Positions 1,930 through 31,664 of a DNA stretch of 34,367 nucleotides are shown here, in pieces. The stretch's first letter is position 1; every line of letters begins with the position of its first letter. Source of the DNA: a virus. The notes beneath the pieces are model-generated. The model saw only the letters and a list, made by a program, of their open reading frames with translations. It was not told where the DNA came from and did not search any database. The DNA lies in the IMG/VR virus record IMGVR_UViG_3300027728_000045, positions 1 to 34,367 of that record. One strand, 5' to 3'. Position numbers and translations under genes: made by a program.

Positions 1930-2012
1930 TGGACGTCTGTCATTCCCGCAGCAGCCAGTGTTCCGCGCGAACGGCCCGGCGCGAATTCCCTCGGGCCGAT
2001 GGAGACATCACC

Positions 2013-2372: not shown

Positions 2373-2386
2373 CGCGGCGCCCGTCG

Positions 2387-4693
2387 ATGATCGAGTTCCA
2401 CCGATACGCCAACCTGTTCCCGATGATCGAGGATGCTCCCTTCGAGGAGTTCTCCGCGGCCATCCGGGAGCGTGGCGTCATCCGGGAAAAGATCGTGATC
2501 TATCCCGACGACGGGGTGGACGCCATTCTCGACGGGCGCAACCGCTACCGCGCCGGCACGCTGGTCGGGCTCATCGATATCGACTGGGATGTGGAAGAGC
2601 TGATCGCGGCGGGCTTTGCCGAGCGCTACGACGAGGCGCGGCACGGCGACCCGCTGGCCTGGGTGATCGACCGGAACCTCCATCACCGGCACCTGACCGA
2701 CCGGCAGCGGGTGATGATCGCAGCCGAGATCTCGACGCTGAAGCCGGGGCGGCCTTCGGAATGGAAGGCTGATTTGAACGTGGCGGCCGGCGCTGAAGGG
2801 GCGCGCCGACTCGCGGGGGCCAACAACCCGGCCAATTGGCCGGATTCGTCACACGTGAAGCCCTCGCCACATCGCGGGCTCAGCCAGGCCGAGAGCGCCA
2901 AGCGGCTGGGCGTGCCGGAGCGGCAGGTGCGGCGCGGCGTGCAGGTGTTCGAGACCGGCGTGCCCGAACTGGTCGAGGCGGCAAAGCGCGGCGACATGGC
3001 CATCAGCGCCGCCGAACAGATCGCCCGGCTGCCTGCAGACGAGCAACGGCGGCTGGTCGAGGCCGGCGCGGTGTCGGGCGCGCGCTCGATCATGGCAAGC
3101 CGTGCCGAGCCCTCGGACAGCCTCGATTTCTTTCCGACCCCGCCCTGGGCTACCCGCGCCCTGGTGGAGGACGTGCTGCCGGCACTCGGTGTCGACCTTG
3201 CCCGCCACAGCGTCTGGGAGCCTGCCTGCGGCGAAGGCCACATGACCGGCGTGCTCTGGGAATATGGCGGACTGGTCTGCGGTACCGACATTTTCGACTA
3301 TGGCGCCGAGGGGCGCTCGGTGCCGGCGTGGCTGCGCCCGCTCAATTTCCTCCTCGACGAGCCGCTCAGCGGCTACGACTGGCTGGTCAGCAATCCGCCG
3401 TTCGAGCCGGCGCTCGACTTTGTGCTGCGCGCCATCGCCACGGCCGGTACCGGCGTCGCCATGTTCGTGCGCAGCCAGTGGGCGGTGGAGGGCGTGGAGC
3501 GCTACGAGCGGCTGTTCCGCGACAATCCGCCGACGCTCTGCGCCTATTTCTCGGAGCGGGTGAACCTTTGCAAGGGTCGCTGGGATCCGGAGGGTTCGAC
3601 CGCCACGGCCTATTGCTGGCTGATCTGGATCAAGGGCGCGGCGCCGCGGCCGCCAATGTGGATCCCGCCCGGCCGCCGCATCGCGCGGACAAAGCCCGAC
3701 GATGTGCAGCGCTTCACTGCGCACCCGGTACTGCGCCCCGCCGACGACGAGCAGGCACTCGGCGAGGCGCTGCTGCAACTGCACACGAATACCCCGAAGT
3801 CGATTCCGTCCGACCCGGCGGAAGCATCGGAGGCCGGCACTTCCCTCCCGGCTGCCGATGCAGGGGAGGGTGCCGCCTCACCCTCCCCGAGCACTTTCCC
3901 TGCCGCCGCCGAAGGCTCCGGTGCCACCGGGGGTACTGATGTAGGCGGCGGCGGGGAGGTCCGGTTGCCTCCCGACAGCCTCGGGCATGGCATGCGCGTC
4001 GGCGGCATGCGCAACAAGGTCGATGCGACGCTCATGGTGAAGCAGCGTGACCGACACCTCTTCGCATTCAGCGTCAGCGTTGACGCTGGTTCGGTGAGCT
4101 ATCGGCACAGCGCGGAGCGCGACAGTCATGCTGCGGCGATGGTGGCCGCATTCGAGGCCCTTGACGAGGAGTTCTGCCGGCGGATGAGCGCCCCGGCCCT
4201 TGTCGCCCCATTGCGCGCCGGCCGCCGCTGGCTCGAATCCAAGGCCGATGCCTGGGGCCTGACATTTTCACTGCGAGATACGCCAGAGGGTACCGACGAA
4301 AGCGATGAGTCATCCCCGGAGGCAGGTCGGCAGGCCGAAGCTTCCCTTGCCGGGACAGGGACCGGGACGCCTGCCGATCGCGATCAACCCGCCTCAGAGG
4401 GGGAGGGTGCTGACGTTGCGCTCTCCCCCGCCCTCAGCAACGACCAGATCAACGCCATCATTTCCGCCGGCTATGCGGCAGAGCCGCAGGTCGGGGTGGC
4501 GGAGCTGGCGCGGCGCACAGGCCTCAGCCGCAATGCGGTGAAGAAGCGGGCGGCGCGGCTCGATCTCTCCAGTGCCGAGAACCAGCGGGCGGCCGTCGCC
4601 GAGTCCAACCGCCGGCGCGGGAAGACTCCTGGTGCGCGGTCGTCTGGCGAAGAGGCTCGCGACTCGCGAGGGGGCGCCAATGCCCGTGGCTAA
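2387..4693 (+). CDS. ParB-like / SAM methyltransferase / HTH fusion protein
   Basis: This gene encodes 768 residues. Residues 1-75 resemble the ParB/Srx fold (AAIRERGVIREKIVIYPDD, DGRNRYRA). Residues about 165-225 hold an HTH (LSQAESAKRLGVPERQVRRG). Residues about 245-430 are a class I methyltransferase, with motif I WEPACGEGHM near 278 and motif IV SNPPF at 335-339, typical of phage adenine methyltransferases. A Ser/Pro/Ala linker follows, then a small beta domain (about 545-600), then a second HTH (NDQINAIISAGYAAEPQ to KKRAARL, about 685-725). A type B palindromic element lies in the loop before the first HTH (2782-2820). A type A element encodes the C-terminus ARSSGEEARDSRGG. The linkers also contain G/C palindromes (3863-3888). 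The start is weakly supported, with no clear SD. Confidence 0.8.
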   Translation: MIEFHRYANLFPMIEDAPFEEFSAAIRERGVIREKIVIYPDDGVDAILDGRNRYRAGTLVGLIDIDWDVEELIAAGFAERYDEARHGDPLAWVIDRNLHHRHLTDRQRVMIAAEISTLKPGRPSEWKADLNVAAGAEGARRLAGANNPANWPDSSHVKPSPHRGLSQAESAKRLGVPERQVRRGVQVFETGVPELVEAAKRGDMAISAAEQIARLPADEQRRLVEAGAVSGARSIMASRAEPSDSLDFFPTPPWATRALVEDVLPALGVDLARHSVWEPACGEGHMTGVLWEYGGLVCGTDIFDYGAEGRSVPAWLRPLNFLLDEPLSGYDWLVSNPPFEPALDFVLRAIATAGTGVAMFVRSQWAVEGVERYERLFRDNPPTLCAYFSERVNLCKGRWDPEGSTATAYCWLIWIKGAAPRPPMWIPPGRRIARTKPDDVQRFTAHPVLRPADDEQALGEALLQLHTNTPKSIPSDPAEASEAGTSLPAADAGEGAASPSPSTFPAAAEGSGATGGTDVGGGGEVRLPPDSLGHGMRVGGMRNKVDATLMVKQRDRHLFAFSVSVDAGSVSYRHSAERDSHAAAMVAAFEALDEEFCRRMSAPALVAPLRAGRRWLESKADAWGLTFSLRDTPEGTDESDESSPEAGRQAEASLAGTGTGTPADRDQPASEGEGADVALSPALSNDQINAIISAGYAAEPQVGVAELARRTGLSRNAVKKRAARLDLSSAENQRAAVAESNRRRGKTPGARSSGEEARDSRGGANARG
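2782..2820 (+). repeat. Palindromic element, type B, in frame inside the ParB-methyltransferase gene
   Basis: GGCGGCCGGCGC and GCGCGCCGACTCGC flank the apical TGAAGGG. It is translated as AAGAEGARRLAG between the ParB-like part (ending near LKPGRPSEWKADLN) and the HTH (LSQAESAKRLG), a stretch that is short in related proteins. It contains a GACTC (GANTC) site. Confidence 0.8.
3863..3888. repeat. Perfect inverted repeat in an interdomain linker
   Basis: GGGGAGGGTG (3863-3872) and CACCCTCCCC (3879-3888) are perfect 10-bp arms around CCGCCT, coding in frame for part of the linker AGEGAASPSPST. A looser G/C inverted repeat (GGGGGAG at 4399-4405, CTCCCCC at 4423-4429) lies in the second linker of the same gene. 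These differ from the type A and B elements. Confidence 0.7.
4634..4674 (+). repeat. Palindromic element, type A, encoding a C-terminus
   Basis: GCGCGGTCGTCTGGCGAAG is followed by AGGCTCGCGACTCGCGAG. It is read as ARSSGEEARDSRGG at the end of the methyltransferase fusion, and its 3' edge touches the ATG at 4680 of the next gene. It contains GACTC. Confidence 0.8.
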
Positions 4694-5870
4694 GCCCGTC
4701 GCCGGCTATCCGAGCAAGACCGCCTGCATTCTCGGCGAGCACGCCAAGGGTGCCAGCGTTGCCGATATCGCGCGGCTGGCGGCGACGTCTCCGGCAACGG
4801 TGCGCCAGGTCATTGCCACCGAGGCGGCGCGGCTGGCCCGCGAGGGGCTCGGCGAGGCCGGGATATGGACGCCCGAAAAGGTCGAGTCGATCCGGCGGAT
4901 TTTTGCGCAGACCGTGGAAATGCTTGCCGAGGCCAAGCAGCTGCCGGCGGACGAAGTGCTGGCGCTGCTGGTCAGCGGCACGGTGCCGCCGATGGGTCTG
5001 GGGCAGCGGCTGGGGCAGCTGCGCGGTGACGGCGCCGGGAACCGCGCCGAGACCGGCACCGCCCTGGTCGTGCTGCCGGCGCCGGACGGGGGGGGCGTGG
5101 AGCAGTCCAGGGGCGCCGCCGGCGGGCTGACTACCACCGGTACGATCAGCTGGCGGCAGATTGCCGACCTGCCCGAGGGCACGTCTCACTGCGGAGATTC
5201 TGACATGAGCACTCCCGTTATCGACTGGACCGACGCCCGCGTCCAAGAGCTGAAGCGGCTGCATGCCGAAGGGCACAGCGCCAGCACGATCGCGGGGATT
5301 CTCGGCGGTGGCTGCACCCGCAATGCCGTCATCGGCAAGACTCACCGGCTGAAGCTGACGCCGGTCAAGCTGAAGCGCAGTCCTGCCGCCGTCCAGCCCC
5401 GCCGCGCCGCGGCCGACAAGAGCGGCTCGGTGACCGACAAGGCGAACCGGGCCCGGCAGGCGGCGCTGCGGCCGAAATCGCCCGTGGAGGGTATGGCGCG
5501 CGACCTGCGGTGGGGCAGGGGCGTGTCTGGTCTGGCGGCCGGCGCTGAAGGGGCGCTGCGGGTTGGTGAAGGTCCCGACATGGCGATGGACGACGCTTTG
5601 CCGCTGCCCAAGTTCGAGGAAGCCTTCGTGCCGCTCGACCGGCGGCTGCGGCTGGTGCAGCTGACCGAGCACACCTGCAAGTGGCCGATCGGCGACCCGT
5701 TGTCGCCGGACTTCTACTTCTGCGGTGGGGAGAGTCTCGAGGGCAAGCCCTATTGCGAGTTCCACACCAAGCGCTCCTATGCGGTCATCCCTGCCGTCCG
5801 CAAGGCTGCGGCGGGTGGCTTCAACGGCATGCGCCGGCTGACCCATGCGGCTGGCGGGGTGCCGTCGTGA
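4680..5870 (+). CDS. GcrA-family cell-cycle regulator with extra N-terminal HTH domain
   Basis: The frame codes for 396 residues without a stop. Residues about 8-60 contain an HTH (AKGASVADIARLAATSPATV). Residues 61-120 are helical and a Gly-rich linker follows with a G8 run (5088-5095). From residue 176 the protein is clearly GcrA: WTDARVQELKRLHAEGHSAS, then GGGCTRNAVIGKTHRLKL, and a C-terminal CKWPIGDP with CGGESLEGKPYCEFH. GcrA binds sigma70 RNA polymerase and activates promoters with methylated GANTC. An internal ATG at 5205 (GGAGA at 5192-5196) would give a free, normal-sized GcrA of about 220 residues, so both a fusion and a separate product are possible. A degenerate type B element (5534-5565) is in frame in the GcrA linker. 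ATG 4680 overlaps the previous gene. Confidence 0.8.
   Translation: MPVAKPVAGYPSKTACILGEHAKGASVADIARLAATSPATVRQVIATEAARLAREGLGEAGIWTPEKVESIRRIFAQTVEMLAEAKQLPADEVLALLVSGTVPPMGLGQRLGQLRGDGAGNRAETGTALVVLPAPDGGGVEQSRGAAGGLTTTGTISWRQIADLPEGTSHCGDSDMSTPVIDWTDARVQELKRLHAEGHSASTIAGILGGGCTRNAVIGKTHRLKLTPVKLKRSPAAVQPRRAAADKSGSVTDKANRARQAALRPKSPVEGMARDLRWGRGVSGLAAGAEGALRVGEGPDMAMDDALPLPKFEEAFVPLDRRLRLVQLTEHTCKWPIGDPLSPDFYFCGGESLEGKPYCEFHTKRSYAVIPAVRKAAAGGFNGMRRLTHAAGGVPS
5205..5870 (+). other. Possible internal start giving stand-alone GcrA
   Basis: ATG 5205 is in the same frame as the fusion, with GGAGA nine bases upstream. The product from here (MSTPVIDWTDARVQELKRL) starts exactly where normal GcrA proteins start. 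The 175 codons upstream look coding, so this is listed as an alternative or additional start, not as a separate gene. Confidence 0.5.
5534..5565 (+). repeat. Palindromic element, type B, degenerate, in the GcrA gene
   Basis: GGCGGCCGGCGCTGAAGGG is identical to the left half of the copy at 2782. The right half (GCGCTGCGGGTTGG) has decayed and lost the GACTC. It is translated in the same frame as the other type B copies (AAGAEGALRVGE), in the linker between the GcrA HTH and its C-terminal domain. Confidence 0.7.
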
Positions 5871-6097: not shown

Positions 6098-7254
6098 TGC
6101 TCAACTCGAAGATCGAGTGGACGGACGACACCTGGCAGATCGTGACCGGTTGCGACATCGTCTCGCCCGGTTGCACCAATTGCTATGCCATGCGGCTGGC
6201 GGGCGGGCGGCTGCGCAACCATCCCTCGCGGGTGGGGCTGACGCAGGCTTCGAAGGCGGGCCCGGTGTGGACGGGCGAGGTGCGGTTCAACGCGCAATGG
6301 CTGAGCCAGCCGCTGCAGCACCGGCGCGGCCGGATGATCTTTGTGGCGGCGCATGGCGACCTGTTTCACGACAAGGTCGAGACGGCCTGGCTCGACCAGA
6401 TCTTTGCGGTGATGGCGCTTTGCCCGCAGCACGTGTTCCAGGTGCTGACCAAGCGGCCCGAGCGGGCGCTGGCCTATCTCGGCGATCCGCCGACGGTGGC
6501 GCGCGTCTACGACATCGTCATGGACATGGCGGTGCTGGACGAGGTGCCGGTGCTGCTGACCGTGCCGGGCGTGGTGCCGACCACCGTGCCCAAGGGGTGG
6601 CAGGTCGTGTCGCTGGGCGCCTGGCCGCTGGCCAATGTGTGGCTGGGCACCTCGGTGGAGGACCAGACGCGTGCCGACGAGCGCATCCCGCAGCTGCTGG
6701 CGACGCCGGCGGCGGTACGCTGGATTTCGGCGGAGCCGCTGCTGGGGCCGGTGGACCTCAACAGGATCCATGAGCACTTCGAAACGATGGGCGGCGGAAG
6801 CCTCGACACCTGGGAAAGCGCCATCAATGGCAAGCGGTTCGATCCGTGGTCAGATGGCGATATCGACGGCATGCCTAAGCTCGACTGGGTCGTCGTCGGC
6901 GGCGAAAGCGGGTCGGGTGCGCGACCGATGCATCCGGACTGGGCCAACGCGCTGCGCGCCCAGTGCGCCAGTGCCTGTGTACCGTTCTTTTTCAAGCAGT
7001 GGGGCAGCTGGGCGCCGACTGGCTTCCGGTCGACGGAAGCCTCGGGTGACACGCGGGTGGCGTGGCCGGACGGCAGTGTCGGGCCGGGCGAGGCCGCGGC
7101 GCGCGGCGGACCAGGCGAGCATCTCGCGCATCTCTCCAGGGCACTCGCCGGACGCCTGCTCGATGGCGTGACCCATGACGGCATGCCGCCGTTCCCCGCT
7201 GCATTCCTCGCATCGCAACCGGGGGCCGTGGCTCCCAGAGAAAGGGGGCCGTGA
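6097..7254 (+). CDS. Phage Gp37/Gp68 family protein (DUF5131)
   Basis: This gene encodes 385 residues. The opening SKIEWTDDTWQIVTGC, the C-x6-C-x2-C cluster (Cys19, 26, 29: GCDIVSPGCTNCYA), the FVAAHGDLFHDKV segment, VFQVLTKRPERAL, NVWLGTSVEDQ, and WVVVGGESGSGARPMHPDWA are the hallmarks of the phage Gp37/Gp68 (DUF5131) family. These are TIM-barrel proteins thought to be related to radical SAM enzymes, with unknown substrate. Two insertions (about 145-175 and 225-255) make it longer than the usual 250-300 residues. The start is ATG 6097 with AGGGGAG at 6083; GTG 6094 is an alternative. Confidence 0.85.
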   Translation: MLNSKIEWTDDTWQIVTGCDIVSPGCTNCYAMRLAGGRLRNHPSRVGLTQASKAGPVWTGEVRFNAQWLSQPLQHRRGRMIFVAAHGDLFHDKVETAWLDQIFAVMALCPQHVFQVLTKRPERALAYLGDPPTVARVYDIVMDMAVLDEVPVLLTVPGVVPTTVPKGWQVVSLGAWPLANVWLGTSVEDQTRADERIPQLLATPAAVRWISAEPLLGPVDLNRIHEHFETMGGGSLDTWESAINGKRFDPWSDGDIDGMPKLDWVVVGGESGSGARPMHPDWANALRAQCASACVPFFFKQWGSWAPTGFRSTEASGDTRVAWPDGSVGPGEAAARGGPGEHLAHLSRALAGRLLDGVTHDGMPPFPAAFLASQPGAVAPRERGP

Positions 7255-7613
7255 TGGCCGAGAAGACGATTGCCGGGCTCGAGGCGGAACTGCGCGCCCT
7301 GGAAAAGCAGCATGCCGCTGAACGCGCCGAAGCCGCCGAGCGGCTCAACGCGGAGCGCCGAGCGTCGATGCGCCATGCGGGCGAGACCGCGCGGCTGCGT
7401 GACGAGCTGATGGTCGCGACTCTCCGGGCCGAGCGGCTGGAGGGCTATCTCGACCGCATCGCCGAAGACGAAAGGCCGCCGCAGCGCTCGCGGCCCTCGT
7501 CGGGGACCGCGCTGCGGGCGATGACCTATTCGCATGCGGCCGGCCGTGACGCCGATACGGCGGTGACCGAGGCCTGGTGGAACCGCGGCATGGCCGCGGT
7601 GGGGGGGCATTGA
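7254..7613 (+). CDS. Coiled-coil protein of unknown function
   Basis: This gene encodes 119 residues starting MAEKTIAGLEAELRALEKQ. Residues 4-70 are a continuous heptad-like helix rich in Glu, Ala, Leu and Arg, probably a coiled coil. The C-terminal 35 residues (GTALRAMTYSHAAGRDADT, then WWNRGMA) are more specific but match nothing recognised. The ATG lies in a GTGATG pair directly on the previous stop. A G7 run (7601-7607) precedes the stop. Confidence 0.55.
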   Translation: MAEKTIAGLEAELRALEKQHAAERAEAAERLNAERRASMRHAGETARLRDELMVATLRAERLEGYLDRIAEDERPPQRSRPSSGTALRAMTYSHAAGRDADTAVTEAWWNRGMAAVGGH

Positions 7614-7614
7614 G

Positions 7615-7974
7615 ATGGCCCAGCAGACCATTCTGTCGCTGTTTCGCCGCATGGACCGGGGCCAGCTGGCCGCCGACCTGCAGACGGGGGTCAACACCAT
7701 CGTCGAGCACATCGAAACCAACCATGGCGACGGCAGCGGCGAGATCACGCTCAAACTTAAGATCAAGTGCGATGCGCCGGGCAGCTACGAGATCACGCCC
7801 GAGCTCACAGTCAAGATCCCCAAGCCCAAGCGCAGCAAGACGCGGGCCTTCTTCAACGAAGACACCGGCACGCTCGACGACCGCGACCCGCGCCAGCCCG
7901 ACTTTGGCGTCGTGGTGGCGGCCGACCGCAGCAACGGCCTGACGCACCTGCACCAGGCTGAAGGCGACGACTGA
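7615..7974 (+). CDS. Hypothetical phage protein, partner of the DUF2303 gene
   Basis: This gene encodes 119 residues starting MAQQTILSLFRRMDRG. The middle is a two-stranded pattern (GSGEITLKLKIKCDAPGSY, ITPELTVKIPKPKR), followed by KTRAFFNEDTGTLDDRDPRQ. The same strand pattern and FFxEDGTL motif occur in small proteins beside DUF2303 genes in Rhizobiales phages, and a DUF2303 gene follows here. Function unknown. The ATG follows the previous stop by one base. Confidence 0.6.
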   Translation: MAQQTILSLFRRMDRGQLAADLQTGVNTIVEHIETNHGDGSGEITLKLKIKCDAPGSYEITPELTVKIPKPKRSKTRAFFNEDTGTLDDRDPRQPDFGVVVAADRSNGLTHLHQAEGDD

Positions 7975-7983
7975 TTTTTAGGT

Positions 7984-8017
7984 GGGCGGTCAGCGCTGAA
8001 GGGGCGCGCTGACTGGC
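7984..8017 (+). repeat. Palindromic element, type B, intergenic copy 1 of a tandem pair
   Basis: GTCAGCGC pairs perfectly with GCGCTGAC across TGAAGGG. Compared with the copy at 9023 (GTCGGCGC and GCGCCGAC), both partners of one base pair have changed, so the stem is conserved while the sequence is not. It lacks the GANTC site. Confidence 0.85.
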
Positions 8018-8024
8018 AAAAAAT

Positions 8025-8080
8025 GGGCGGTCGGGGCTGAAGGGGCGCCCTGACTCGCCGGGGAGCCCCGACTGCCCCGC
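8025..8080 (+). repeat. Palindromic element, type B, full-length copy 2 of the tandem pair
   Basis: GTCGGGGC pairs with GCCCTGAC (one G-T wobble) across TGAAGGG. GACTCGCC follows, then a second small hairpin GGGG-A-GCCCC and GACTGCC. With 9023 and 10724 this defines the long two-hairpin form. It lies between the stop at 7974 and the start at 8107. Confidence 0.85.
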
Positions 8081-8106
8081 ATGACAACTCAGGCCTGGAG
8101 GCCCAG

Positions 8107-9015
8107 ATGACCCGATACAACGAGAAAAGTCACCCGTCGGACGACAAGCATCCGGAGGTTCGCGGCGACATCGAGGTGGCAATCGAGGAGGTGGTGCGGC
8201 GCACCGTGTCGTCGATCTACGACCTGGCTGATGGCGGCAAGCGCGTTTTCATCCCAGAGGGGATGACGGCGCACGATCTCCCCGCCATCAACCCGGTGCT
8301 GCCCGATTTCGTGACCCAGACCGAAGTGCTGGTGATGCCGGACTCGTTCAAGGCCTATGTCAGCGCGTTCAAGAGTTCGACCGCCATCGTGCGGGCCTTT
8401 GCCGCCATCGAGGAGGATCGCGAGAAGCGTATCGCGGCCCGGCCGCCGCACTTCGTCGCCGTGCTCGACTATCACGGCCGGGCCCGCGAGGGCGAACGCG
8501 ACGCCGCGGTGGCCGGGCGCTGCCAGCACGTGGTGCAGCTCAACCTGCCCTGGAGCCCGGAATACGAGAAGTGGCGGCCGGTGCTGATGGGCGGCTTCCT
8601 GCCGCAAAAGCAGTTCGTCGAGTTCTGCGAGAACCTCGTGCAGACGATCGCGCTGCCGGCGTTCGGCGATCTCTATGACGCGCTGAACGCGGTCGAGATC
8701 GACCGGGTGACCAAGTTCAAGTCGGCGCGCAACGATCGCAACGGCAACATCCAGTTCGCGCTCGACGAGCAGGACGGCGAGACCATTCGCGAGGGCCGCT
8801 ACACGCTGCCCGACCGGGTGCAGCTGGTGGTCTCGATCTTCCAGGGTGGGCTGGCGCAGCAGCTCGATACCAAGCTCCGCTACTGGCTGGACGGGGGCAA
8901 GCTGTTCCTCGGCCTGCACGTGCCGGCCATGGATGCCATCGAGCGCGAGGCCTTCATGGGGGTGGGCGAGGACATCGCCAGCGCGACCGGCACGCCGGTG
9001 TTTTACGCGGCGTAG
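8107..9015 (+). CDS. DUF2303 family protein
   Basis: This gene encodes 302 residues starting MTRYNEKSHPSDDKHPEVRG. The family features are PHFVAVLDYHG, LPWSPEYEKW, MGGFLPQKQFVEFCENL, VTKFKSARNDRNGNIQFAL and LPDRVQLVVSIFQGGLAQQL. DUF2303 (YfdQ-like) proteins are common in the early regions of temperate phages and have no established function. The length is normal for the family. AGGCCCAG precedes the ATG. The upstream gap is filled by two palindromic elements. Confidence 0.85.
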   Translation: MTRYNEKSHPSDDKHPEVRGDIEVAIEEVVRRTVSSIYDLADGGKRVFIPEGMTAHDLPAINPVLPDFVTQTEVLVMPDSFKAYVSAFKSSTAIVRAFAAIEEDREKRIAARPPHFVAVLDYHGRAREGERDAAVAGRCQHVVQLNLPWSPEYEKWRPVLMGGFLPQKQFVEFCENLVQTIALPAFGDLYDALNAVEIDRVTKFKSARNDRNGNIQFALDEQDGETIREGRYTLPDRVQLVVSIFQGGLAQQLDTKLRYWLDGGKLFLGLHVPAMDAIEREAFMGVGEDIASATGTPVFYAA

Positions 9016-9022
9016 TTGGAGT

Positions 9023-9073
9023 GGGCGGTCGGCGCTGAAGAGGCGCGCCGACTCGCCGGGACTCCCGACTGCC
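9023..9073 (+). repeat. Palindromic element, type B, full length, intergenic
   Basis: GTCGGCGC and GCGCCGAC form a perfect 8-bp stem around an apical TGAAGAGGC. The outer GGCG and CGCC extend it past a single unpaired T. The second hairpin GGGA-C-TCCC and GACTGCC follow. It lies between stop 9015 and start 9128 and contains GACTC. This is the best reference copy of the long form. Confidence 0.9.
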
Positions 9074-9083
9074 ACAACCCAAC

Positions 9084-9104
9084 CCGCGCGCTCAAGGCGC
9101 GCGG
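9084..9104. terminator. GC-rich hairpin before the gene at 9128
   Basis: CCGCGCGC (9084-9091) and GCGCGCGG (9097-9104) are perfect 8-bp arms around TCAAG. GTTCCTG follows rather than a run of T, so it is a weak terminator candidate. It may act as an mRNA processing or attenuation structure 23 bases before the next ATG. Confidence 0.45.
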
Positions 9105-9127
9105 TTCCTGCCTGATGGGGGCTGCCG

Positions 9128-9511
9128 ATGGAAGAAACAGTACGCAAATGGTGCCCGGCCGAGTGGCTGGATCAGCTTGCGCCCAAGTGGCGCGTGGCCG
9201 ACATGCTGCCGGGGCAGGAGATCGAATTCGTCTGGCACGAGCCGCGTGGCGCGGCCGTGCTCGTCGTCCGCGCCGACCGCAGCTGGTCGTGCCCGGTGGT
9301 CTTTGATGCCGACACCACGCATTTCTGGCTGCCCTACGATCCCGGGTCGCTTGCCGGGAGCATCAGTGAACTGGTCAACGGCGACGGCTTGTGCGCGCCG
9401 CTGCCGCCGGGCGAGCACGAGATCGAAGGCTATGTGTGGTCAGAGCCGGTCAGGTTCCGGGTCGAGGTCGCCGAGTCGGGCGCCGCGCGCTTCGTCGAGG
9501 TGCGGTCGTGA
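9128..9511 (+). CDS. Hypothetical protein
   Basis: This gene encodes 127 residues starting MEETVRKWCPAEWLDQLAP. It looks like an all-beta protein: WRVADMLPGQEIEFVW, AAVLVVRADRSWSCPVV, and a C-terminal EIEGYVWSEPVRFRVEVAE. No family was recognised. ATG 9128 is the likely start, with GGGGGCTG some ten bases before it. The stop overlaps a GTG at 9508. Confidence 0.55.
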   Translation: MEETVRKWCPAEWLDQLAPKWRVADMLPGQEIEFVWHEPRGAAVLVVRADRSWSCPVVFDADTTHFWLPYDPGSLAGSISELVNGDGLCAPLPPGEHEIEGYVWSEPVRFRVEVAESGAARFVEVRS

Positions 9512-9828
9512 ACGGGCGGTTTGCCGAATATGCCACCAGTGGCGCCTTTGCGGTGACGCTGACGCGGTCACAGATCCAGTCGCTCGGCTTCGTGCTGGGG
9601 ACGGGCGGGGCGATGTACAGCCACGGCACCTCGCTCGAACGCAAGGGGCTGGTCGAGCCGCCGGGCAAGCTGGTGGGCACGCGCATCGCCATCCATGCCG
9701 GGGCGCGGAAGATCGTCCAGACCGAAGTCAAGGCGCTGCTGGCGCGGCTGGCCTCGCACCTCTTCAGCACGCGCGGGGTCGAGGCACGCTTCCCAGGCCC
9801 GCGCCGCCGTGGAATTCGGCATGCCTGA
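9508..9828 (+). CDS. ASCH-domain-like protein, N-terminal part of a broken gene
   Basis: This frame encodes 106 residues from a GTG overlapping the upstream TGA. FAVTLTRSQIQSLGFVLG, YSHGTSLERKGLVEPPGKL and GTRIAIHAGARK match the ASCH-like small beta-barrel proteins of phages, where the IHA motif is conserved; ASCH domains bind RNA or modified nucleotides. The frame ends early in a low-complexity Arg/Pro tail (PGPRRRGIRHA). The expected C-terminal ASCH strands appear downstream in another frame (9829-10004), so the protein is probably truncated. ASCH assignment moderate. Confidence 0.5.
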   Translation: MNGRFAEYATSGAFAVTLTRSQIQSLGFVLGTGGAMYSHGTSLERKGLVEPPGKLVGTRIAIHAGARKIVQTEVKALLARLASHLFSTRGVEARFPGPRRRGIRHA

Positions 9829-10004
9829 GGAAAGAGAGGGCGGCCATCACCGGCGGCCTCGGTTCTGGGGCGCGCGCAGCGCCGAACGACAGCGACCGCG
9901 ACCAGCACGCCAATTTTGCCTGGCCGCTGACCGATATCGCGCTGGTGATGCCGCCCGAGCCGTTCCGCGGCAAGCAGGGCTTTGGCGAGTGGGGCGGGCG
10001 ATGA
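9829..10004 (+). pseudogene. C-terminal remnant of the ASCH-like gene, out of frame
   Basis: In the third frame the sequence reads RAAITGGLGSGARAAPND and then SDRDQHANFAWPLTDIAL, ending MPPEPFRGKQGFGEWGGR. The pattern FAW-L-DI, then P-P-x-x-x-R-G-x-Q-G-F-x-x-W, is the usual C-terminus of phage ASCH proteins. An intermediate piece (ARAAVEFGMPEE, about 9797-9832) is in yet another frame, so two frame changes separate this remnant from the gene starting at 9508. Either the gene is dead or the assembly has errors here. Confidence 0.5.
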
Positions 10005-10201
10005 GGCGGGCGGTGCGCGTCAGCTTCAGGCCCGGCGGGCCGCGGGCGGTTGCGCCTTATTGGCCGCATGTCCGCCCGCAGCTGGTCTCCTGGCAGCGGG
10101 CCTATCGGCTGGGCTGGATCTCGCTCGAAGAGTGGCGCGCGTCGTTCTCGCGCCGTCTCGCTGCCGCGCGCAAGGCGTTTGTCGCGGGGGGCGGGCGATG
10201 A
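10001..10201 (+). CDS. Small basic hypothetical protein
   Basis: This gene encodes 66 residues starting MRRAVRVSFRPGGPRAVA. The ATG overlaps the stop of the ASCH remnant (ATGA), which suggests that the remnant's frame was once translated. It is rich in Arg and Trp (YWPHVRPQLVSWQRAYR, GWISLEEWRASFSRRLAAA) and mostly helical. No family was recognised. The stop overlaps the next ATG. Confidence 0.5.
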   Translation: MRRAVRVSFRPGGPRAVAPYWPHVRPQLVSWQRAYRLGWISLEEWRASFSRRLAAARKAFVAGGGR

Positions 10202-10431
10202 GCAGCAGCAGCAGGAAGCCAAAGCTTTCGATGTGGACGATCTACGATCATCCTTCCGACTTTCCGGAAGTCTATGTGGCGCGGCTCTGGGAAGGCGACC
10301 GGGCGACGGACGAACACATCGTCCGCGCTGAGCTGACGGACCTGCGCATCGAAGTGCAGCGGCGCGGCGCCACCGGCAGGCTGCCGCGGTCGCTGGCCGA
10401 CGATCCCGTGATCCTCGAGGTGTGGCTGTGA
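10198..10431 (+). CDS. Small hypothetical protein
   Basis: This gene encodes 77 residues starting MSSSSRKPKLSMWTIYDHP. It reads as strands TIYDHPSDFPEVYVARLWEG, then a helix (HIVRAELTDLRIEVQRR) and a short C-terminus LADDPVILEVWL. The pattern fits a family of small early phage proteins of unknown function. Both ends overlap neighbouring genes (ATGA at the start, GTGA at the stop). Confidence 0.6.
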   Translation: MSSSSRKPKLSMWTIYDHPSDFPEVYVARLWEGDRATDEHIVRAELTDLRIEVQRRGATGRLPRSLADDPVILEVWL

Positions 10432-10712
10432 GCAACTCTGCGCGGTCGTCTGGCGAACGGGCTCGTGACTCGCGTGGCCGCATCGCCATCCAGCTCTGGC
10501 TGCACCGGGAGCAGGGCGACGCCTGGCTGGTGTCGGCCAATGGCGTCGGCGCCGGGGTCTATGTGCCCAAGGCGGCGCTCGACTGGCCCGGTGACATGCG
10601 CCCGGCCGCCATGGGCGCCAGCGGCCCGTGGGATGCGCTGATCGATGCCGGCATCGCCGAAACCAAGGGGCTGGTCAGCCGCCCCGACCCCAACCAGACG
10701 GAGATGTTTTGA
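10428..10712 (+). CDS. Hypothetical protein with element-derived N-terminus
   Basis: This gene encodes 94 residues from the GTG at 10428 that overlaps the previous stop; a GTG at 10422 is also possible. The first 17 residues (VSNSARSSGERARDSRG) come from a type A palindromic element. The conserved-looking part begins at about residue 18 (IAIQLWLHREQGDAWLVS), with a KAALDWPGDM segment and a DPNQTEMF tail. Small proteins ending in a D/EMF-type tail next to methyltransferases are usual in these phages; function unknown. Confidence 0.55.
   Translation: MSNSARSSGERARDSRGRIAIQLWLHREQGDAWLVSANGVGAGVYVPKAALDWPGDMRPAAMGASGPWDALIDAGIAETKGLVSRPDPNQTEMF
10440..10477 (+). repeat. Palindromic element, type A, at a protein N-terminus
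   Basis: GCGCGGTCGTCTGGCGAAC is followed by GGGCTCGTGACTCGCG. It begins four codons after the GTG start at 10428 and is read as ARSSGERARDSRG, the same frame as the copies at 4634 and 10724. It contains GACTC. Confidence 0.8.
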
Positions 10713-12637
10713 TGAACCACTTTGCGCGGTCGTCTCGCGATGGGGCTCGCGACTCGCGGGATTCCCGACTCCAGCAGGGCTGGGACCTCGACGATCGCAT
10801 GACGGTCGTGTTGTTCGCCGGCATGGGCGGGGGCTGTGACGGGCTGGAGGATGCGGGGTTCCACGTCCACCTTGCCGTCAACCATGACCCGCTGGCCATC
10901 GCCGTGCACGAGGCGCGGCACCCGCACACCACGCATCTGCGCTGCGACGTGTTCGAGGTCGATCCGCGGAAGGCGACGCGGGGCCGGGGCGTGCGCAATC
11001 TCCATGCCTCGCCCGACTGCACGCATTTCTCGGTGGCCAAGGGCTCCAAGCCGGTCAGCCGGCGGCGCCGGTCGCTGGCATGGGTGGTGCCGCGCTGGAT
11101 GGGCACGGTGCGTCCCGACGTGGTAACGCTGGAAAACGTCCGCGAGATCGCCACCTGGGGGCCGCTGATCTGCAAGCGCGATCCGGCCACCGGCCGCTGT
11201 CTCAAACTCGACAAGACCGTCGCCGCCAAGGGCGAGCGCGTGCCGATCGAGCAGCAATGGCTGATCCCAGATCCGCGCCACAAGGGCCGCATCTGGCGCG
11301 CATGGCTCAAGCACGTGCGCGGCCTGGGCTACAATTTCGAGTTCCGCACCCTCTGCTGCGCCGACTATGGCGTGCCGACGATCCGCACCCGCTTCTTCGG
11401 CGTCGGCCGCGCCGATGGCGGCCCGATCGTCTGGCCGGAGCGGACCCATGCCCCGCGGTCGAAGTGCAAGGCACTGGGGCTCAAGCCCTGGGTGGGCGCC
11501 GACACGATCATCGACTGGTCGCGGCCGACCACCTCGATCTTCGAGCGGAAGAAGCCGCTGGCCGATGCGACGCTGCGGCGGATCGCGGCGGGCATCGTCC
11601 GCTACGTGCTCGAGGCGAGCGACCCGTTCATTGTGCCGATCACCCATCACGGCGCGGGTGCCCGGGTCCACGACATCGCGGAGCCCTTGAGGACGCTGAC
11701 CACGGCCCATCGCGGGGAGATGGCGGTGATCGCCCCGGTGACCGTTGGTGCGGGCGGGCGCGCGGCGCAGACCGATCCCCGCTCGGTGGCCGAACCGCTC
11801 AGCACCTCCTCGACCAAGGAGGATCGTATCCTCGTCGAGCCAGTGGCAGCGCATCTCGAAAAGTTCAGCGAGAACTCGGTTGGCCTCGACCCGCGTGATC
11901 CACTCACCACGGTGATGGCTGGCGGACAGGGACACGCTGTCGTTGCTGCGCACCTGACCAAGTTCCGCAACGGCGCGGTGGGCGCCGAGGCGACCGGGCC
12001 GCTGCCGGCCTACACCGCCAACAGCTTCCACAAGCGGCCGGGCGGATCGGCGCCGATCGGCGTCGTCGCCGCGACGATGGTCGGGCTGGCCCATGGTCAC
12101 AGCGGCAGCCGGCGGGAATATGACCTCCGCGAGCCGACGCTGACCAAGCATGCCGGCGGCAAAAACGAGGCGCTCGTCGCCGCCACGCTGGTGCAGACCG
12201 GCTATGGCGAACGCGATCTGCGCCATCCGCTGCCGACGCAGACGTCGGGCGCCGGCCACGAGATGCTGATCCTGCCGTTCCTCCAGACCTATTACGGGTC
12301 GGGGGTGAACGCCCATGACGCGCGCGACCCGCTGCATACCGTCACCGTCGGCGATCGCCACGGCCTCGTTGCCGTCGAGGTCAACGGGCAGACCATGATC
12401 ATCACCGATATCCGCATGCGCATGCTGCACTGGTCGGAGGGCGCACGGGCGCACGGGTTCGACCCGGCCAGCCTCGAGCATGATATCGAGGTGACGGATG
12501 CCAAAGGCAGGGTGAAGCGGCGCAAGCCAAACGCCACCGAATGCACGCACCTGATCGGCAATTCCGTACCGCCCTGGATGGTCACCATCCTTGCCGAGCG
12601 GAACAGCCGCCGCGAACTGCTGGTGGCGGCCGAATGA
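10712..12637 (+). CDS. C5-cytosine DNA methyltransferase
   Basis: This gene encodes 641 residues. Motif I is FAGMGGGCDGLEDAGF (35-50). The catalytic loop is SPDCTHFSVAKG with Cys103, motif VI is ENV at 141-143, and the C-terminal motifs include GNSVPPWMV. It transfers a methyl group from SAM to C5 of cytosine, probably to protect phage DNA. The SPDC(T/K)HFS form of motif IV and repeated blocks such as DPLTTVMAGGQGHAVVA and EPLRTLTTAHRG belong to a long phage subgroup (over 600 residues). The first 20 or so residues (ARSSRDGARDSRDSR) are encoded by a palindromic element, so the ancestral start may be Met30 (10799). The ATG overlaps the previous stop. Confidence 0.9.
   Translation: MNHFARSSRDGARDSRDSRLQQGWDLDDRMTVVLFAGMGGGCDGLEDAGFHVHLAVNHDPLAIAVHEARHPHTTHLRCDVFEVDPRKATRGRGVRNLHASPDCTHFSVAKGSKPVSRRRRSLAWVVPRWMGTVRPDVVTLENVREIATWGPLICKRDPATGRCLKLDKTVAAKGERVPIEQQWLIPDPRHKGRIWRAWLKHVRGLGYNFEFRTLCCADYGVPTIRTRFFGVGRADGGPIVWPERTHAPRSKCKALGLKPWVGADTIIDWSRPTTSIFERKKPLADATLRRIAAGIVRYVLEASDPFIVPITHHGAGARVHDIAEPLRTLTTAHRGEMAVIAPVTVGAGGRAAQTDPRSVAEPLSTSSTKEDRILVEPVAAHLEKFSENSVGLDPRDPLTTVMAGGQGHAVVAAHLTKFRNGAVGAEATGPLPAYTANSFHKRPGGSAPIGVVAATMVGLAHGHSGSRREYDLREPTLTKHAGGKNEALVAATLVQTGYGERDLRHPLPTQTSGAGHEMLILPFLQTYYGSGVNAHDARDPLHTVTVGDRHGLVAVEVNGQTMIITDIRMRMLHWSEGARAHGFDPASLEHDIEVTDAKGRVKRRKPNATECTHLIGNSVPPWMVTILAERNSRRELLVAAE
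10724..10772 (+). repeat. Palindromic element, type A, long form, at the methyltransferase N-terminus
   Basis: GCGCGGTCGTCTCGCGATG is followed by GGGCTCGCGACTCGCGGG, then the second small hairpin GGGA-T-TCCC and GACTCC. It starts four codons after ATG 10712 and is read as ARSSRDGARDSRDSRL. It contains GACTC, GATTC and GACTC again. Confidence 0.85.
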
Positions 12638-13497: not shown

Positions 13498-14288
13498 CAA
13501 ATCTGTTTGCCGGCATGGGGTCGCATCAGTCGGCGCGGTCGGAGACCGACACCTGGTTCTCGCCGCCGGCCCTCGTGGAGGCGCTGGGCGGGGCGGAGAG
13601 CTTCGATCTCGATCCCTGCAGCCATGTGAAGCGGCCGTGGGACACGGCACTGGCGCACTACACGCAGGAGGACAATGGCCTGCTGCTGCCCTGGTGGGGG
13701 CGCATCTGGCTCAACCCGCCTTACTCGATCGCGCTGATCACCCGGTTCCTCTCCCGCATGGCCGAACACGATCGGGGCGTGGCGCTGATCTTTGCGCGGA
13801 CCGAGACCGACCCGTTCCACCGCTATGTCTGGGGCGCGGCCTCGGGCCTGCTGTTCCTGCGCGGGCGGCTGACTTTTCACCGCGCCGACGGGGTGCGGGC
13901 GGCGGCCAATGGCGGGGCGCCGTCGGTGCTGATCGCCTATGGCGACGATGACCGCGACATCCTCGCTGCGGCGCCGATCGACGGGGCCTTCGTGCCGCTG
14001 CGGGTTCCCCGCAGCTGGCTGGTGTCGGTCGTCTCGCAGAACGGCTCGCGACTCGACGGGGTGCTGACTGGGGCCGCTGAACTGGTCGGCACATGGGGCG
14101 AGGCGCTCGCCGCCTATATGGCAGGCCAGCCGGGCCCGGTACCGCTGGGCGAGCTCTATCGCGCCTTTGTCGATCATCCCAAGGCGCGGGCCAACCAGCA
14201 CTGGCGGGAAAAGCTGCGCCAGCAGCTGCAGCGTGGCGCCTATGAGCGGGTGGAAAAGGGTCTGTGGCAGCGGAGGGCAGCGGCATGA
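13494..14288 (+). CDS. Phage N6-adenine DNA methyltransferase (PF05869 type)
   Basis: This gene encodes 264 residues. The family signature is present: ETDTWFSPPALVEALG, SFDLDPCSH (LDPCS at 39-43), WWGRIWLNPPYS (catalytic NPPY at 74-77), then ALIFARTETDPFHRYVW and LFLRGRLTFHRADG. This DNA N6-adenine methyltransferase family is common in phages. After about residue 175 the protein extends beyond the family's core; a type A element lies in that extension (14025-14067, read as SVVSQNGSRLDG), followed by a helical domain (LYRAFVDHPKARANQHWRE). Overlaps both neighbours by four bases. Confidence 0.88.
   Translation: MTNLFAGMGSHQSARSETDTWFSPPALVEALGGAESFDLDPCSHVKRPWDTALAHYTQEDNGLLLPWWGRIWLNPPYSIALITRFLSRMAEHDRGVALIFARTETDPFHRYVWGAASGLLFLRGRLTFHRADGVRAAANGGAPSVLIAYGDDDRDILAAAPIDGAFVPLRVPRSWLVSVVSQNGSRLDGVLTGAAELVGTWGEALAAYMAGQPGPVPLGELYRAFVDHPKARANQHWREKLRQQLQRGAYERVEKGLWQRRAAA
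14025..14067 (+). repeat. Palindromic element, type A variant, inside the adenine methyltransferase
   Basis: TCGGTCGTCTCGCAGAACG is followed by GCTCGCGACTCGACGGGG. It is read in a different frame from the ARSS copies, giving VVSQNGSRLDG, as at 14899. It sits between the catalytic domain and the C-terminal helices. It contains GACTC. Confidence 0.7.
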
Positions 14289-14878: not shown

Positions 14879-16422
14879 GCATGGCCAGCTACTTCGAGGG
14901 CGGTCGCTCGCAGAACGGCTCGCAACTCGCCGGGGGCACGCTCGTCGAGTTCAAGTCCGCCGATGGCAAGGTGCTGATGGCGCCGCAGAATGTGGAGGCC
15001 GAGCAGGCGCTGCTGGGGGCGATCTTTCTCAATAACGACGCCTTCTATCGCGTCGCCGACATTGTCGGGCCCGAGGATTTTCACGAGCCGGTGCATCGCG
15101 AGATCTATGACGTGGTGGCCAAGCTGATCCGGGCGGGGCGCGGGGCGACACCCCTCACGGTCAAGACGCACCTGCCGGCGGCGCTGACGCCGGACCTGAC
15201 CATGGCGCAGTACCTGGCGCGGCTCGCGGCGGCGGCGGTGACGGTGCTCAATGCGCCCGACTATGCGCAGGAGGTGGCGGCGCTGTCGGTGCGGCGGCGG
15301 CTGATCGGGCTGCACCAGGGCGGCATTCACGAGGCTTTCCATGCCGAACCGGGGCAGCCGGTGGCGGCATTGGTCGAGCGGGTGGAGCGCGACCTTTATG
15401 CCCTGGCCGAGAACGGTGGGGCGGCCGGCGGCTTTGCGCCGTTCAACGTGGCGCTGACCGAAGCCATCCGCATGGCGGCAGCGGCCTATGAGCGCGACGG
15501 GGGGCTCTCGGGGCTCGCCACCGGGCTCGCCGATCTCGACCGGCTGATGGGCGGGCTGCAGAAATCGGACCTGATCATCATTGCCGGGCGGCCGGCGATG
15601 GGCAAGACGGCGCTCGGCACCGGCATTGCCTGGCACGTCGCCAATGCCTGGCGCGGCCATGTCGCGCCGGACGGGGCGCGGGTGACCGACGAAGGCGGCG
15701 TGGTCGGGTTCTTTTCGCTCGAAATGAGCGCCGAGCAGCTGGCGACCCGCATCCTCGCCGAGCAGGCCGAGATCGCCTCGTCCGACATTCGCCGCGGCAA
15801 CATCCACGAGAGCCAGTTTTCGCGGCTGGTCGATGTGTCGAGCCGGCTCAGCGCCATGCCGCTGCATATCGACGATTCGGGCGGGCTGGCGCTGGCGCAG
15901 CTGAGCCAGCGGGCGCGGCGGCTGAAGCGGCAGAAGGGGCTCGATCTTCTCGTCGTCGACTATCTGCAGCTGCTCAGCGGCGACGGGCGCCGGCAGGACA
16001 ACCGGACCAACGAGATCACCGCCATCACCACGGGGCTCAAGGCGCTGGCCAAGGAACTGGAAGTGCCGATCATTGCGCTGAGCCAGCTCAGCCGGCAGGT
16101 GGAGAGCCGCGAGGACAAGCGGCCGCAGCTCTCGGACCTGCGCGAGTCGGGCTCGATCGAGCAGGATGCCGACGTGGTGCTGTTCGTCTATCGCGAGGAA
16201 TATTACCTCGGCATGAAGGAGCCCCAGGAGGGCAGCGAGGAGCACCTCAAATGGCAGGCGGCGATGGAGGCGGCGACCGGCCGCGCCGACGTCATCATCG
16301 GCAAGCAGCGCCACGGCCCGACCGGCACGGTGCAGCTGAGCTTTGAGAGCCGGTTCACGCGGTTTGGCAATCTGGCGCGGACGGAATATCGGCCGGCTGG
16401 CGGGCATGGGGGAGCGCTGTGA
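14875..16422 (+). CDS. dnaB: Replicative DNA helicase DnaB
   Basis: This gene encodes 515 residues. The N-terminal DnaB domain begins at PQNVEAEQALLGAIF (37-51). The RecA-like ATPase has Walker A GRPAMGKTALG (about 239-249), FFSLEMSAEQL, Walker B LLVVDYLQLLSG (about 359-370), the ALSQLSRQVESR segment, LRESGSIEQDAD and the final GTVQLSFESRFTRF. It unwinds DNA at the phage fork as a hexamer. The first 36 residues are extra, and residues 9-21 (GGRSQNGSQLAGG) come from a type A palindromic element. Together with the initiator-like gene at 17896 it forms the replication module. Confidence 0.95.
   Translation: MSMASYFEGGRSQNGSQLAGGTLVEFKSADGKVLMAPQNVEAEQALLGAIFLNNDAFYRVADIVGPEDFHEPVHREIYDVVAKLIRAGRGATPLTVKTHLPAALTPDLTMAQYLARLAAAAVTVLNAPDYAQEVAALSVRRRLIGLHQGGIHEAFHAEPGQPVAALVERVERDLYALAENGGAAGGFAPFNVALTEAIRMAAAAYERDGGLSGLATGLADLDRLMGGLQKSDLIIIAGRPAMGKTALGTGIAWHVANAWRGHVAPDGARVTDEGGVVGFFSLEMSAEQLATRILAEQAEIASSDIRRGNIHESQFSRLVDVSSRLSAMPLHIDDSGGLALAQLSQRARRLKRQKGLDLLVVDYLQLLSGDGRRQDNRTNEITAITTGLKALAKELEVPIIALSQLSRQVESREDKRPQLSDLRESGSIEQDADVVLFVYREEYYLGMKEPQEGSEEHLKWQAAMEAATGRADVIIGKQRHGPTGTVQLSFESRFTRFGNLARTEYRPAGGHGGAL
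14899..14937 (+). repeat. Palindromic element, type A variant, at the DnaB N-terminus
   Basis: GGCGGTCGCTCGCAGAACG is followed by GCTCGCAACTCGCCGGGGG. It is read as GGRSQNGSQLAGG before the conserved DnaB start. Together with the copy at 14025 it forms a subtype with CTCGCAGAACGGCTCGC at the apex. The GANTC is lost (AACTC). Confidence 0.8.
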
Positions 16423-17896: not shown

Positions 17897-18759
17897 TGAG
17901 ACCGACCCAAGCGAGTCGCGAGCCCCTTCGCGAGACGGCCTCCATGCCCAGGCAGCCCGATATCGGTTGCATCATCGCGGATCTCGTGCGATCGGGCACA
18001 GCACCCGATCTCGTCGGCCGGGTGGCGGCCGGGTTCGTGGCGCTGGCCGGTGCTGCGGCAGCGGCGCAACAGGGCACCGCGGCACTGCAGGAGCTGCGGA
18101 GCAAGGGGGCCGAGCGCACGGCCCGCTGGCGGGCGCGGAAACGGTTTGAACTGGCGGCCGGCGCTGAAGAGGCGCGCCGACTCGCGGGTAGTGGCGGCGA
18201 CGGCCGCCCACTCGACACTGTGACGTCACCGGCGAAGGTCCGTGACGGCGGTGACGTCGTGGTGACGCTCAGAGATCACGTGAGGAAACGGGCGGAACTG
18301 CCTGCGATACCTGAAATTGTGGAAGCGTCGGGCAGCACCCCAGCGAGGTACGAGCCCCCTGGCAAGCAGCCGCCACCTGGTCACGTGACGTCACGCGGTG
18401 ACGGGGTGACGCAAAAAGAAGTTCCCCCACACCCCCTAAAGAAAAACACTACCCCCCAAACCCCCCGTCTCCGGCGGCAGCGTCACGCCGTGACGGCCGA
18501 GGCGGTGCGGCATGGGGCGACGATCCGCGTCAAGGTCACCTCGGACACGCCCCTGTTCCGGGAATGCGTGGTGCTCTATCGGGCCGGGCATGGCGGCAAG
18601 GAGCCGCCGGACCGGGGACACTGGCACTTCGATCCCGAACTCGTTGCGGAAGCCGAGCGTCGGTTGCAGGTGGCGGTGGTCGCTCTGCCGATCGGCGACC
18701 GGGGACGCCAAGAGGCTGGGGAAGAAGGCAAACCGGCGAGTCGCGAGGGGAAGGGCTAA
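17896..18759 (+). CDS. Probable replication initiator or organizer, carrying iterons
   Basis: This gene encodes 287 residues starting MRPTQASREPLRETAS; Met17 (17944) is an alternative start. The conserved-looking core is IIADLVRSGTAPDLVGRVAA and a basic helix SKGAERTARWRARKR, a pattern seen in Rhizobiales phage replication proteins. The middle is disordered and Pro/Lys-rich (KEVPPHPLKKNTTPQTP). The C-terminal domain (about 195-275) reads KVTSDTPLFRECVVLYRAG. The gene contains many GTGACG repeats (18220-18495), as lambda O contains its origin. Element-derived pieces encode ASREPLRETA (N-terminus), AAGAEEARRLAG (middle), probably YEPPGKQPPP, and PASREG (C-terminus). Function inferred from position and iterons. 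Confidence 0.6.
   Translation: MRPTQASREPLRETASMPRQPDIGCIIADLVRSGTAPDLVGRVAAGFVALAGAAAAAQQGTAALQELRSKGAERTARWRARKRFELAAGAEEARRLAGSGGDGRPLDTVTSPAKVRDGGDVVVTLRDHVRKRAELPAIPEIVEASGSTPARYEPPGKQPPPGHVTSRGDGVTQKEVPPHPLKKNTTPQTPRLRRQRHAVTAEAVRHGATIRVKVTSDTPLFRECVVLYRAGHGGKEPPDRGHWHFDPELVAEAERRLQVAVVALPIGDRGRQEAGEEGKPASREGKG
17911..17940 (-). repeat. Palindromic element, type A, reverse orientation, at a protein N-terminus
   Basis: On the reverse strand GGCCGTCTCGCGAAG is followed by GGGCTCGCGACTCGC. It is read on the plus strand as ASREPLRETA right after the start at 17896, showing that the reverse orientation is also tolerated in coding sequence. It contains GAGTC. Confidence 0.8.
18153..18188 (+). 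repeat. Palindromic element, type B, inside the initiator-like gene
   Basis: GGCGGCCGGCGCTGAAGAG is followed by GCGCGCCGACTCGCGGG, nearly identical to the copy at 2782. It is read as AAGAEEARRLAG directly after the basic helix RTARWRARKRFEL. It contains GACTC. Confidence 0.85.
18220..18495. other. Candidate replication origin: GTGACG iterons inside the initiator-like gene
   Basis: GTGACG occurs on the plus strand at 18220, 18242, 18251, 18262, 18385, 18398, 18406 and 18490, and as CGTCAC at 18224, 18389 and 18481. Two copies are full palindromes, GTGACGTCAC (18220-18229 and 18385-18394). The cluster flanks a strand-asymmetric A- and C-rich stretch (18412-18466) with almost no G, the only such stretch in the region. 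This is the layout of a lambda-type origin embedded in its initiator gene. Function is inferred. Confidence 0.55.
18341..18375 (-). repeat. Palindromic element, type A, degenerate, reverse orientation
   Basis: The plus strand AGCGAGGTACGAGCCCC, then CTGGCAAGCAGCCGCC, aligns with the reverse of type A (GCGAG, CGAGCCCC, GCnAG, CCGCC conserved). It is in frame in the initiator-like gene as RYEPPGKQPPP. The palindrome has decayed. Confidence 0.45.
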
Positions 18760-18793
18760 CGGCGAGTTGCGAGCCCCTATGCGAGACAACCGC
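18734..18793 (-). repeat. Palindromic elements, type A, reverse: partial plus full copy
   Basis: A half copy (CCGGCGAGTCGCGAGGGG, 18734-18750) ends the initiator-like gene. A full copy (18761-18793) fills the gap before the gene at 18811. In the full copy the stem reads GTTG with CAAC (reverse strand) where other copies have GTCG with CGAC, a compensatory change. The half copy keeps GAGTC; the full copy has lost it. Confidence 0.8.
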
Positions 18794-18810
18794 CATTTCG
18801 GAGAAGAAAC

Positions 18811-19951: not shown

Positions 19952-20049
19952 AGAGGCATCCCAATAGGGACTTCAACGCGCTGCGGCACCCGCCCGGCGC
20001 GTTTCGCTTTTCCGGGTGCTCGCCACCCTCCCAACCGAAAGGCTCTGCC

Positions 20050-31578: not shown

Positions 31579-31664
31579 TTTCGCGGTCGCCTCGCATAGG
31601 AGCTCGCGACTCGCTGGGATCTCTGTTTCGCGGTCGTATCGCATAGCGGCTCGCACCTAGCGGG
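31579..31664 (+). repeat. Tandem pair of type A palindromic elements before the tail tube gene
   Basis: The first copy is at 31579-31623 (TCGCGGTCGCCTCGCATAG then AGCTCGCGACTCGCTGGG). The second, more degenerate, copy is at 31626-31664 (TCGCGGTCGTATCGCATAG then CGGCTCGCACCTAGCGGG). Both share the lead-in TTTCGCGGTCG. They fill the gap between stop 31572 and the tail tube gene. These are the only copies seen in the late region. The first contains GACTC. Confidence 0.8.

Follow-up and report, generated by a model that had tools for sequence, protein, structure and literature searches.

Bacterial chromosomes are known to contain short palindromic repeats, but how these move and how they pass from one genome to another are poorly understood. 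Hairpin-bearing repeats dispersed between phage genes are represented by the PeSL (mobile early-promoter stem-loops) of T4-type phages. In alphaproteobacteria, the Rickettsia palindromic elements (RPE) carry no gene and occur both between genes and, in frame, inside them (PMC10969869, PMC2229807), while the Caulobacter CcrM-associated intergenic repeats (CIR) are two-armed elements of about 110 bp that are strictly intergenic and have a stop in every reading frame (PMC2229807). The hairpins of mobile REPINs commonly show compensatory changes (PMC3116915), and such changes therefore need no function at each locus.

The window analyzed here, the whole 34,367-nucleotide stretch (positions 1-34367) of virus record IMGVR_UViG_3300027728_000045, contains a family of palindromic repeats with 14 clear copies (covariance model of the eight shared base pairs, E<1e-5) and one doubtful member, at 5534 (Table 1). 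The copy at 14899 was left out of the training of the model, yet was recovered by it. A common frame, SGCG-GTCG-N17-CGAC-T-CGCS, underlies types A and B, and its T is bulged and invariant in 14 copies; as judged from folds whose register was read by eye, the inner 4-bp stem of type B is perfect, and type A displays a conserved TC/TC internal loop followed by GC/GC and a six-base loop. The core measures 34 nt, or about 40-50 nt with its tail, and the pattern GCGGTCG-N16..18-CGACTCGC, with 0 or 1 substitution, retrieves nine copies versus 0.05 per first-order Markov shuffle. Copies are found on both strands, in tandem pairs, and within as well as between genes: seven are intergenic (7985, 8026, 9024, 31582, 31629 and, on the minus strand and opposite to gene direction, 17910 and 18761), and seven lie inside ORFs. 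The members of the 7985/8026 and 31582/31629 pairs are direct, not inverted, repeats.

Table 1. Repeat copies and selected phage genes in the window
Feature	Position	Strand	Score
Type B, in frame in ParB-like/methyltransferase ORF (AAGAEGARRLAG)	2782..2815	+	
Type A, codes C-terminal tail of ParB-like/methyltransferase ORF (ARSSGEEARDSR)	4635..4668	+	
Doubtful degenerate type B in GcrA-like ORF	5534..5567	+	16.4 bits, E 0.18
Type B, intergenic, first of tandem pair, stem GTCAGCGC/GCGCTGAC	7985..8018	+	34.1 bits
Type B, intergenic, second of tandem pair, stem GTCGGGGC/GCCCTGAC (one G-T), tail CGGGGAGCCCCGACTGCC	8026..8059	+	37.7 bits
Type B, intergenic, stem GTCGGCGC/GCGCCGAC, tail CGGGACTCCCGACTGCC	9024..9057	+	40.9 bits
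Type A near N-terminus of small ORF (ARSSGERARDSR)	10441..10474	+	
Type A, in frame, N-terminus of C5 methyltransferase (ARSSRDGARDSRDSR)	10725..10758	+	
Type A, in frame in Dam-like methyltransferase (SVVSQNGSRLDG)	14024..14057	+	
Type A, 33-nt form, in frame near DnaB N-terminus (RSQNGSQLAGG)	14899..14931	+	
Type A just upstream of ATG at 17944	17910..17943	-	44.0 bits
Type B, in frame in ORF 17944-18759 (AAGAEEARRLAG)	18153..18186	+	
Type A, intergenic, GTTG/CAAC variant	18761..18794	-	49.3 bits
Type A, intergenic, tandem pair, also in G479, G480, G481	31582..31615	+	44.0 bits
Type A, intergenic, degenerate, second of tandem pair	31629..31662	+	37.1 bits
ParB-like/methyltransferase fusion ORF	1958-4693		
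GcrA-like protein gene	5202-5870		
C5 methyltransferase gene	10712-12637		
Dam-like methyltransferase gene	13491-14288		
D12-class methyltransferase gene	16672-17580		

The original prediction had drawn attention to three neighboring hairpins (7985-8018, 8026-8059, with one G-T pair, and 9024-9057), and these are indeed present, intergenic, located between co-directional genes and able to form up to 12 bp around the bulged T; the GTTG/CAAC variant at 18761-18794 on the minus strand was likewise confirmed. Half of the family sits in coding sequence, which the prediction missed. A second, covarying mini-hairpin had also been proposed; its feasible form, CGGG-(ACT, ATT or GAGC)-CCCG, has the same stem in all three copies, and the suggested covariation was abandoned because this stem is invariant and the alternative GGGA-C-TCCC would need a one-base loop.

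The broader claim, that compensatory changes preserve pairing, was evaluated on an alignment of 14 copies (13 from the phage and one from Devosia), in which 4 of the 8 shared pairs show changes in both partners (C-G/G-C, G-C/U-A, C-G/U-A and G-C/A-U). The observed covariation measures were reached by 0 to 9 of 500 shuffles, and slid partners gave almost none. Adding the inner pairs increased the score, mostly through the split between types A and B, which is a single event, and within type B alone two pairs change on both sides, a result matched by 45 of 500 shuffles. Pairing is thus kept in aggregate as compared to shuffles, but no single pair is significant across all copies once phylogeny is included: the tree-based null yielded 0 pairs at E<0.05, the best value being about 0.23-0.27 over the structure pairs, and pair 10-24 attained E 0.018 in the five type B copies only, in a manner that depends on one sequence. 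This null (Fitch events re-scattered over a FastTree tree, APC-corrected G-test, 200 simulations) is an author-written approximation of R-scape that has little power on 14-19 short sequences, and the outcome of the covariation test with all copies and phylogeny, which the prediction itself had called for, was not significant, with this low power. Furthermore, the view that structure, and not sequence, is selected does not hold, since sequence is conserved alongside structure, both in the GGTCG...CGACTCGC motif and in the TC/TC internal loop of type A.

Pairing that is kept beyond chance in aggregate indicates that the hairpin matters to the repeat family. The step from there to a hairpin selected as RNA or cruciform does not follow for any one locus, because the copies are paralogous members of a dispersed repeat family that is also present in Devosiaceae chromosomes, and pairing does not imply a site-specific function; covariation among paralogous hairpins does not count, on its own, as evidence for an RNA function. 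Functional RNA hairpins in phage transcripts, which would process, stabilize or attenuate messages and be selected site by site, could account for the aggregate pairing and for the placement of the three named copies between co-directional genes. This explanation is nevertheless decidedly unlikely, as half of the copies reside in ORFs, two are on the minus strand against gene direction, no pair is significant with phylogeny, neither a T-tract nor a terminator-like site is found at the hairpins, and no known RNA family was found at the elements. Intrinsic terminators were discarded on the basis of the missing T-tract, and a known RNA family was discarded as well, the only Rfam match being located away from the elements. 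This match, to the DUF3800-VIII RNA (3894-3960, 54.7 bits, E 1e-7), lies inside the predicted ParB-like/methyltransferase ORF.

Paired changes could also have a purely mutational origin, in which template switching between arms (quasipalindrome correction) copies changes across with no selection on structure. Such a process would yield near-perfect arms, as at 7985 and 9024, it fits the weak phylogeny-aware statistics, and it is compatible with a mobile repeat; the T bulge that is invariant in 14 copies and the TC/TC internal loop of type A should, however, also have been corrected away, and coding type B copies retain a C-A mismatch at pair 6-28, making such a mutational origin rather unlikely. 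Conservation of pairing may stem from a requirement for the hairpin in spread, or from template-switch correction of the arms; the paired base changes most likely reflect the way in which the repeat is maintained or propagated, and not a local RNA switch.

The copies within genes are located in the ParB-like/methyltransferase ORF (2782, 4635), a small ORF (10441), the C5 (10725) and Dam (14024) methyltransferases, DnaB (14899) and ORF 17944-18759 (18153), and all seven are in frame and stop-free, type B encoding the peptide AAGAE(G/E)ARRLAG and type A either ARSS..ARDSR or SQNGS(R/Q)L. In Dam, 16-17 residues at the element are missing from the proteins of Agrobacterium phage Atu_ph08 and Erythrobacter phages R6L and ZS04 (51-56% identical). 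In the C5 methyltransferase, 13-14 residues (RSSRDGARDSRDS), situated between MN and the conserved LD(D/N)RMTVVLFAG, are missing from Atu_ph08 and Rhizobium phage PPF1 (54-59% identical). As judged by alignment with these homologues, the extra residues coincide with the element at both of these clean sites, where the extra segment measures 39-51 nt. DnaB, whose N-terminal tail is approximately 15 residues longer than that of Devosiaceae DnaB, and ParB, with approximately 27 extra residues at the 2782 copy as compared to a Bradyrhizobium phage protein, in a region that varies among homologues, are less clean cases. In the GcrA-like ORF no clear insertion was seen at the doubtful 5534 copy, and tblastn found no homologue for ORF 17944-18759 (copy 18153) or for the small ORF at 10430 (copy 10441).

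Empty counterpart sites were seen only in proteins that are 51-59% identical. Four records (G001, G479, G480 and G481) overlap the window at >=99.7% identity, and no filled/empty pair for any copy was found among them. The sole 50-nt difference, extra sequence in G481 (4699-4748) at 20029/20030 of the window, was dismissed as a strain polymorphism of a repeat copy, as it is another sequence; it ends in a terminator-like GCGGCCAATTGGCCGCTTTT-type sequence (CCGGCCAATTGGCCGCTTTT), and G479 starts at the same point. A second palindrome in the window, CCGGCCAATTGGCCGG at ~2826-2845, directly follows the 2782 repeat and resembles that of the 50-nt difference. Leftward of window position 16679, G481 (1-1347) is unrelated, which marks a mosaic junction between strains. 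G001 carries, past the left end of the window (L038, 14810-17467), HK97-type capsid-like genes on the opposite strand, and this part reflects either a mosaic phage or a chimeric assembly. The 8.3-kb rightward extension of the window in G479 has no further repeat copy; 6915-8066 past the window end, it contains a 579-nt tandem duplication with two identical copies. In two related phages (L039, L040) orthologous genes are present and repeat matches are at chance level only, and querying viral contigs with the DUF2303, DnaB and ParB proteins retrieved only the same phage or distant methyltransferases.

The phage terminase shares ~50% identity with its counterparts in two Bradyrhizobium phages, and the phage DnaB shares 65-69% with the DnaB encoded on Devosiaceae chromosomes; on account of these identities, the host is probably a member of the Devosiaceae, a Devosia-like soil bacterium. 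At least four DNA methyltransferase genes are present within 34 kb of this phage, which also encodes a GcrA-like protein. The repeats could be envisaged as landmarks whose CcrM sites (GANTC) are read by the phage GcrA, which would couple phage gene control to the host cell cycle. GANTC sites are underrepresented in the window (58 versus 139 expected under a first-order model), and 13 of the 58 lie in, or <=14 nt after, repeats. Such a role is nonetheless most improbable, given that the copies at 7985, 14899, 18761 and 31629 lack GANTC, as do the chromosomal copies in genomes G005, G008 and G419, and that many copies sit inside genes.

Chromosomal relatives of the repeat were found in Devosiaceae. 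A search of 397 genomes of the order with strict type A and type B patterns produced one genuine type A match and no type B, leaving the latter with no secure chromosomal counterpart by this search, and a pattern scan of genome contigs gave one real match, in Devosia, and one that is probably due to chance. The type A match is an exact copy ~20 nt after lepA in Devosia genome G002. The wider host family came up only with the covariance model, which identified 33-nt forms in G005 and, beside rimP, in G008, together with clustered weaker matches in a Devosiaceae genome, G419. A pattern built from these matches detected 54 copies in G419 versus 0 with a reversed control, and <=2 matches in any other of 122 genomes; among the G419 copies inspected, most fall between genes as judged by a simple ORF criterion, and several form direct tandems. 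In G419 (L093, L096, L097, L100) the repeat sits in longer tandem units of 44 and 66 nt with the lead TTCTTTAAT, in which the stem opposite GCTCGCA takes one of two forms, TGCTCGC or TGCGAGC. The phage dnaB copy at 14899 and the G008 copy are the same in 27 of 27 arm bases, and only the six-base loop differs. G419 is the richest chromosome seen for the repeat, with 0.023 copies per kb versus about 0.41 per kb in the phage, a ratio of ~17 that is rough because the search criteria differ.

Related dispersed copies are therefore present in the phage and in chromosomes, the phage copies within genes are read in frame, and homologues exist that do not carry the corresponding residues. We infer from these observations that the repeat is mobile, that it passed from host to phage, and that its hairpin is what is recognized; the hairpins are quite probably copies of a mobile palindrome of the REP/RPE-like kind, non-autonomous and belonging to the host lineage (Devosiaceae), that has spread into and within the phage. 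The covariance-model family, the Devosiaceae copies, the extra residues at Dam and C5, the occurrence on both strands and in tandem pairs, and the chance-level matches in the orthologous genes of L039 and L040 all argue for a mobile palindrome, whereas the lack of a phage strain with an empty site among those seen, linker lengths that vary in proteins anyway, clearly in ParB, the single copy-rich host genome, of a different subtype, and the missing secure chromosomal counterpart of type B argue against it. Having no gene of its own, the repeat can only be mobilized in trans, and the most plausible agent is an enzyme that would recognize a folded single strand. Only foldable copies would then spread, so that pairing would be kept and compensatory changes could build up between the A and B subfamilies; new copies would survive where harm is small, that is, in intergenic spaces, at protein termini and in linkers, the latter two being places where the element's open frames are read through. 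A Y1 (RAYT) transposase, also counted on the unfavorable side, was found in 0 of 12 genomes or records, several of them incomplete, versus 5 of 14 control genomes, and mobilization by RAYT was rejected on this basis. A more extensive proposal is only tentative: a gene-less palindrome of 34-50 nt would be mobile in both bacterium and phage with no Y1 transposase, would be far denser in the phage, would insert in frame into the replication and methyltransferase genes of the phage, using them as landing sites, and would be carried between hosts by phages.

The abundance of a host-type repeat in a phage, with half of the copies lying within genes, points to a carrier, and such a phage would be a small system for testing insertion, the need for the hairpin and the consequences for proteins. 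The density of the repeat in a phage and its placement inside phage genes are unusual, and the literature searched contained no report of such repeats in a phage.

With regard to known systems, the PeSL share hairpin-bearing repeats dispersed between phage genes, but no promoter-like site was found in 7900-11000, copies here also lie inside genes, and the repeat is common to host chromosomes. Like CIR, it is an alphaproteobacterial palindromic repeat rich in GANTC; GANTC is present in most phage copies, but absent from those of G005, G008 and G419, and membership was rejected as the phage repeat is short and intragenic, being neither a two-armed element of ~110 bp nor strictly intergenic. The similarity to REP and REPIN elements lies in short bulged hairpins in many dispersed, often tandem copies, which in G419 are mostly intergenic. 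In contrast to REPs, 7 of the 14 phage copies are not extragenic, the two tandem pairs are direct whereas a REPIN unit consists of two inverted REPs, and the RAYT that accompanies such elements was not found in the 12 genomes or records. Like RPE, the phage repeat is dispersed between genes and, in frame, within genes, and is gene-less; insertion in frame into protein-coding genes, the criterion for RPE, was found at Dam and C5 and, less cleanly, at DnaB and ParB. RPE differ in that they measure about 100-150 bp and belong to a Rickettsia sequence family, to which no sequence relation is known, while the repeat described here is in a phage, with a 34-nt core and an extra segment of 39-51 nt. 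On the whole, the repeat works most like RPE, in its in-frame insertions, and like REP, in its short bulged hairpins.
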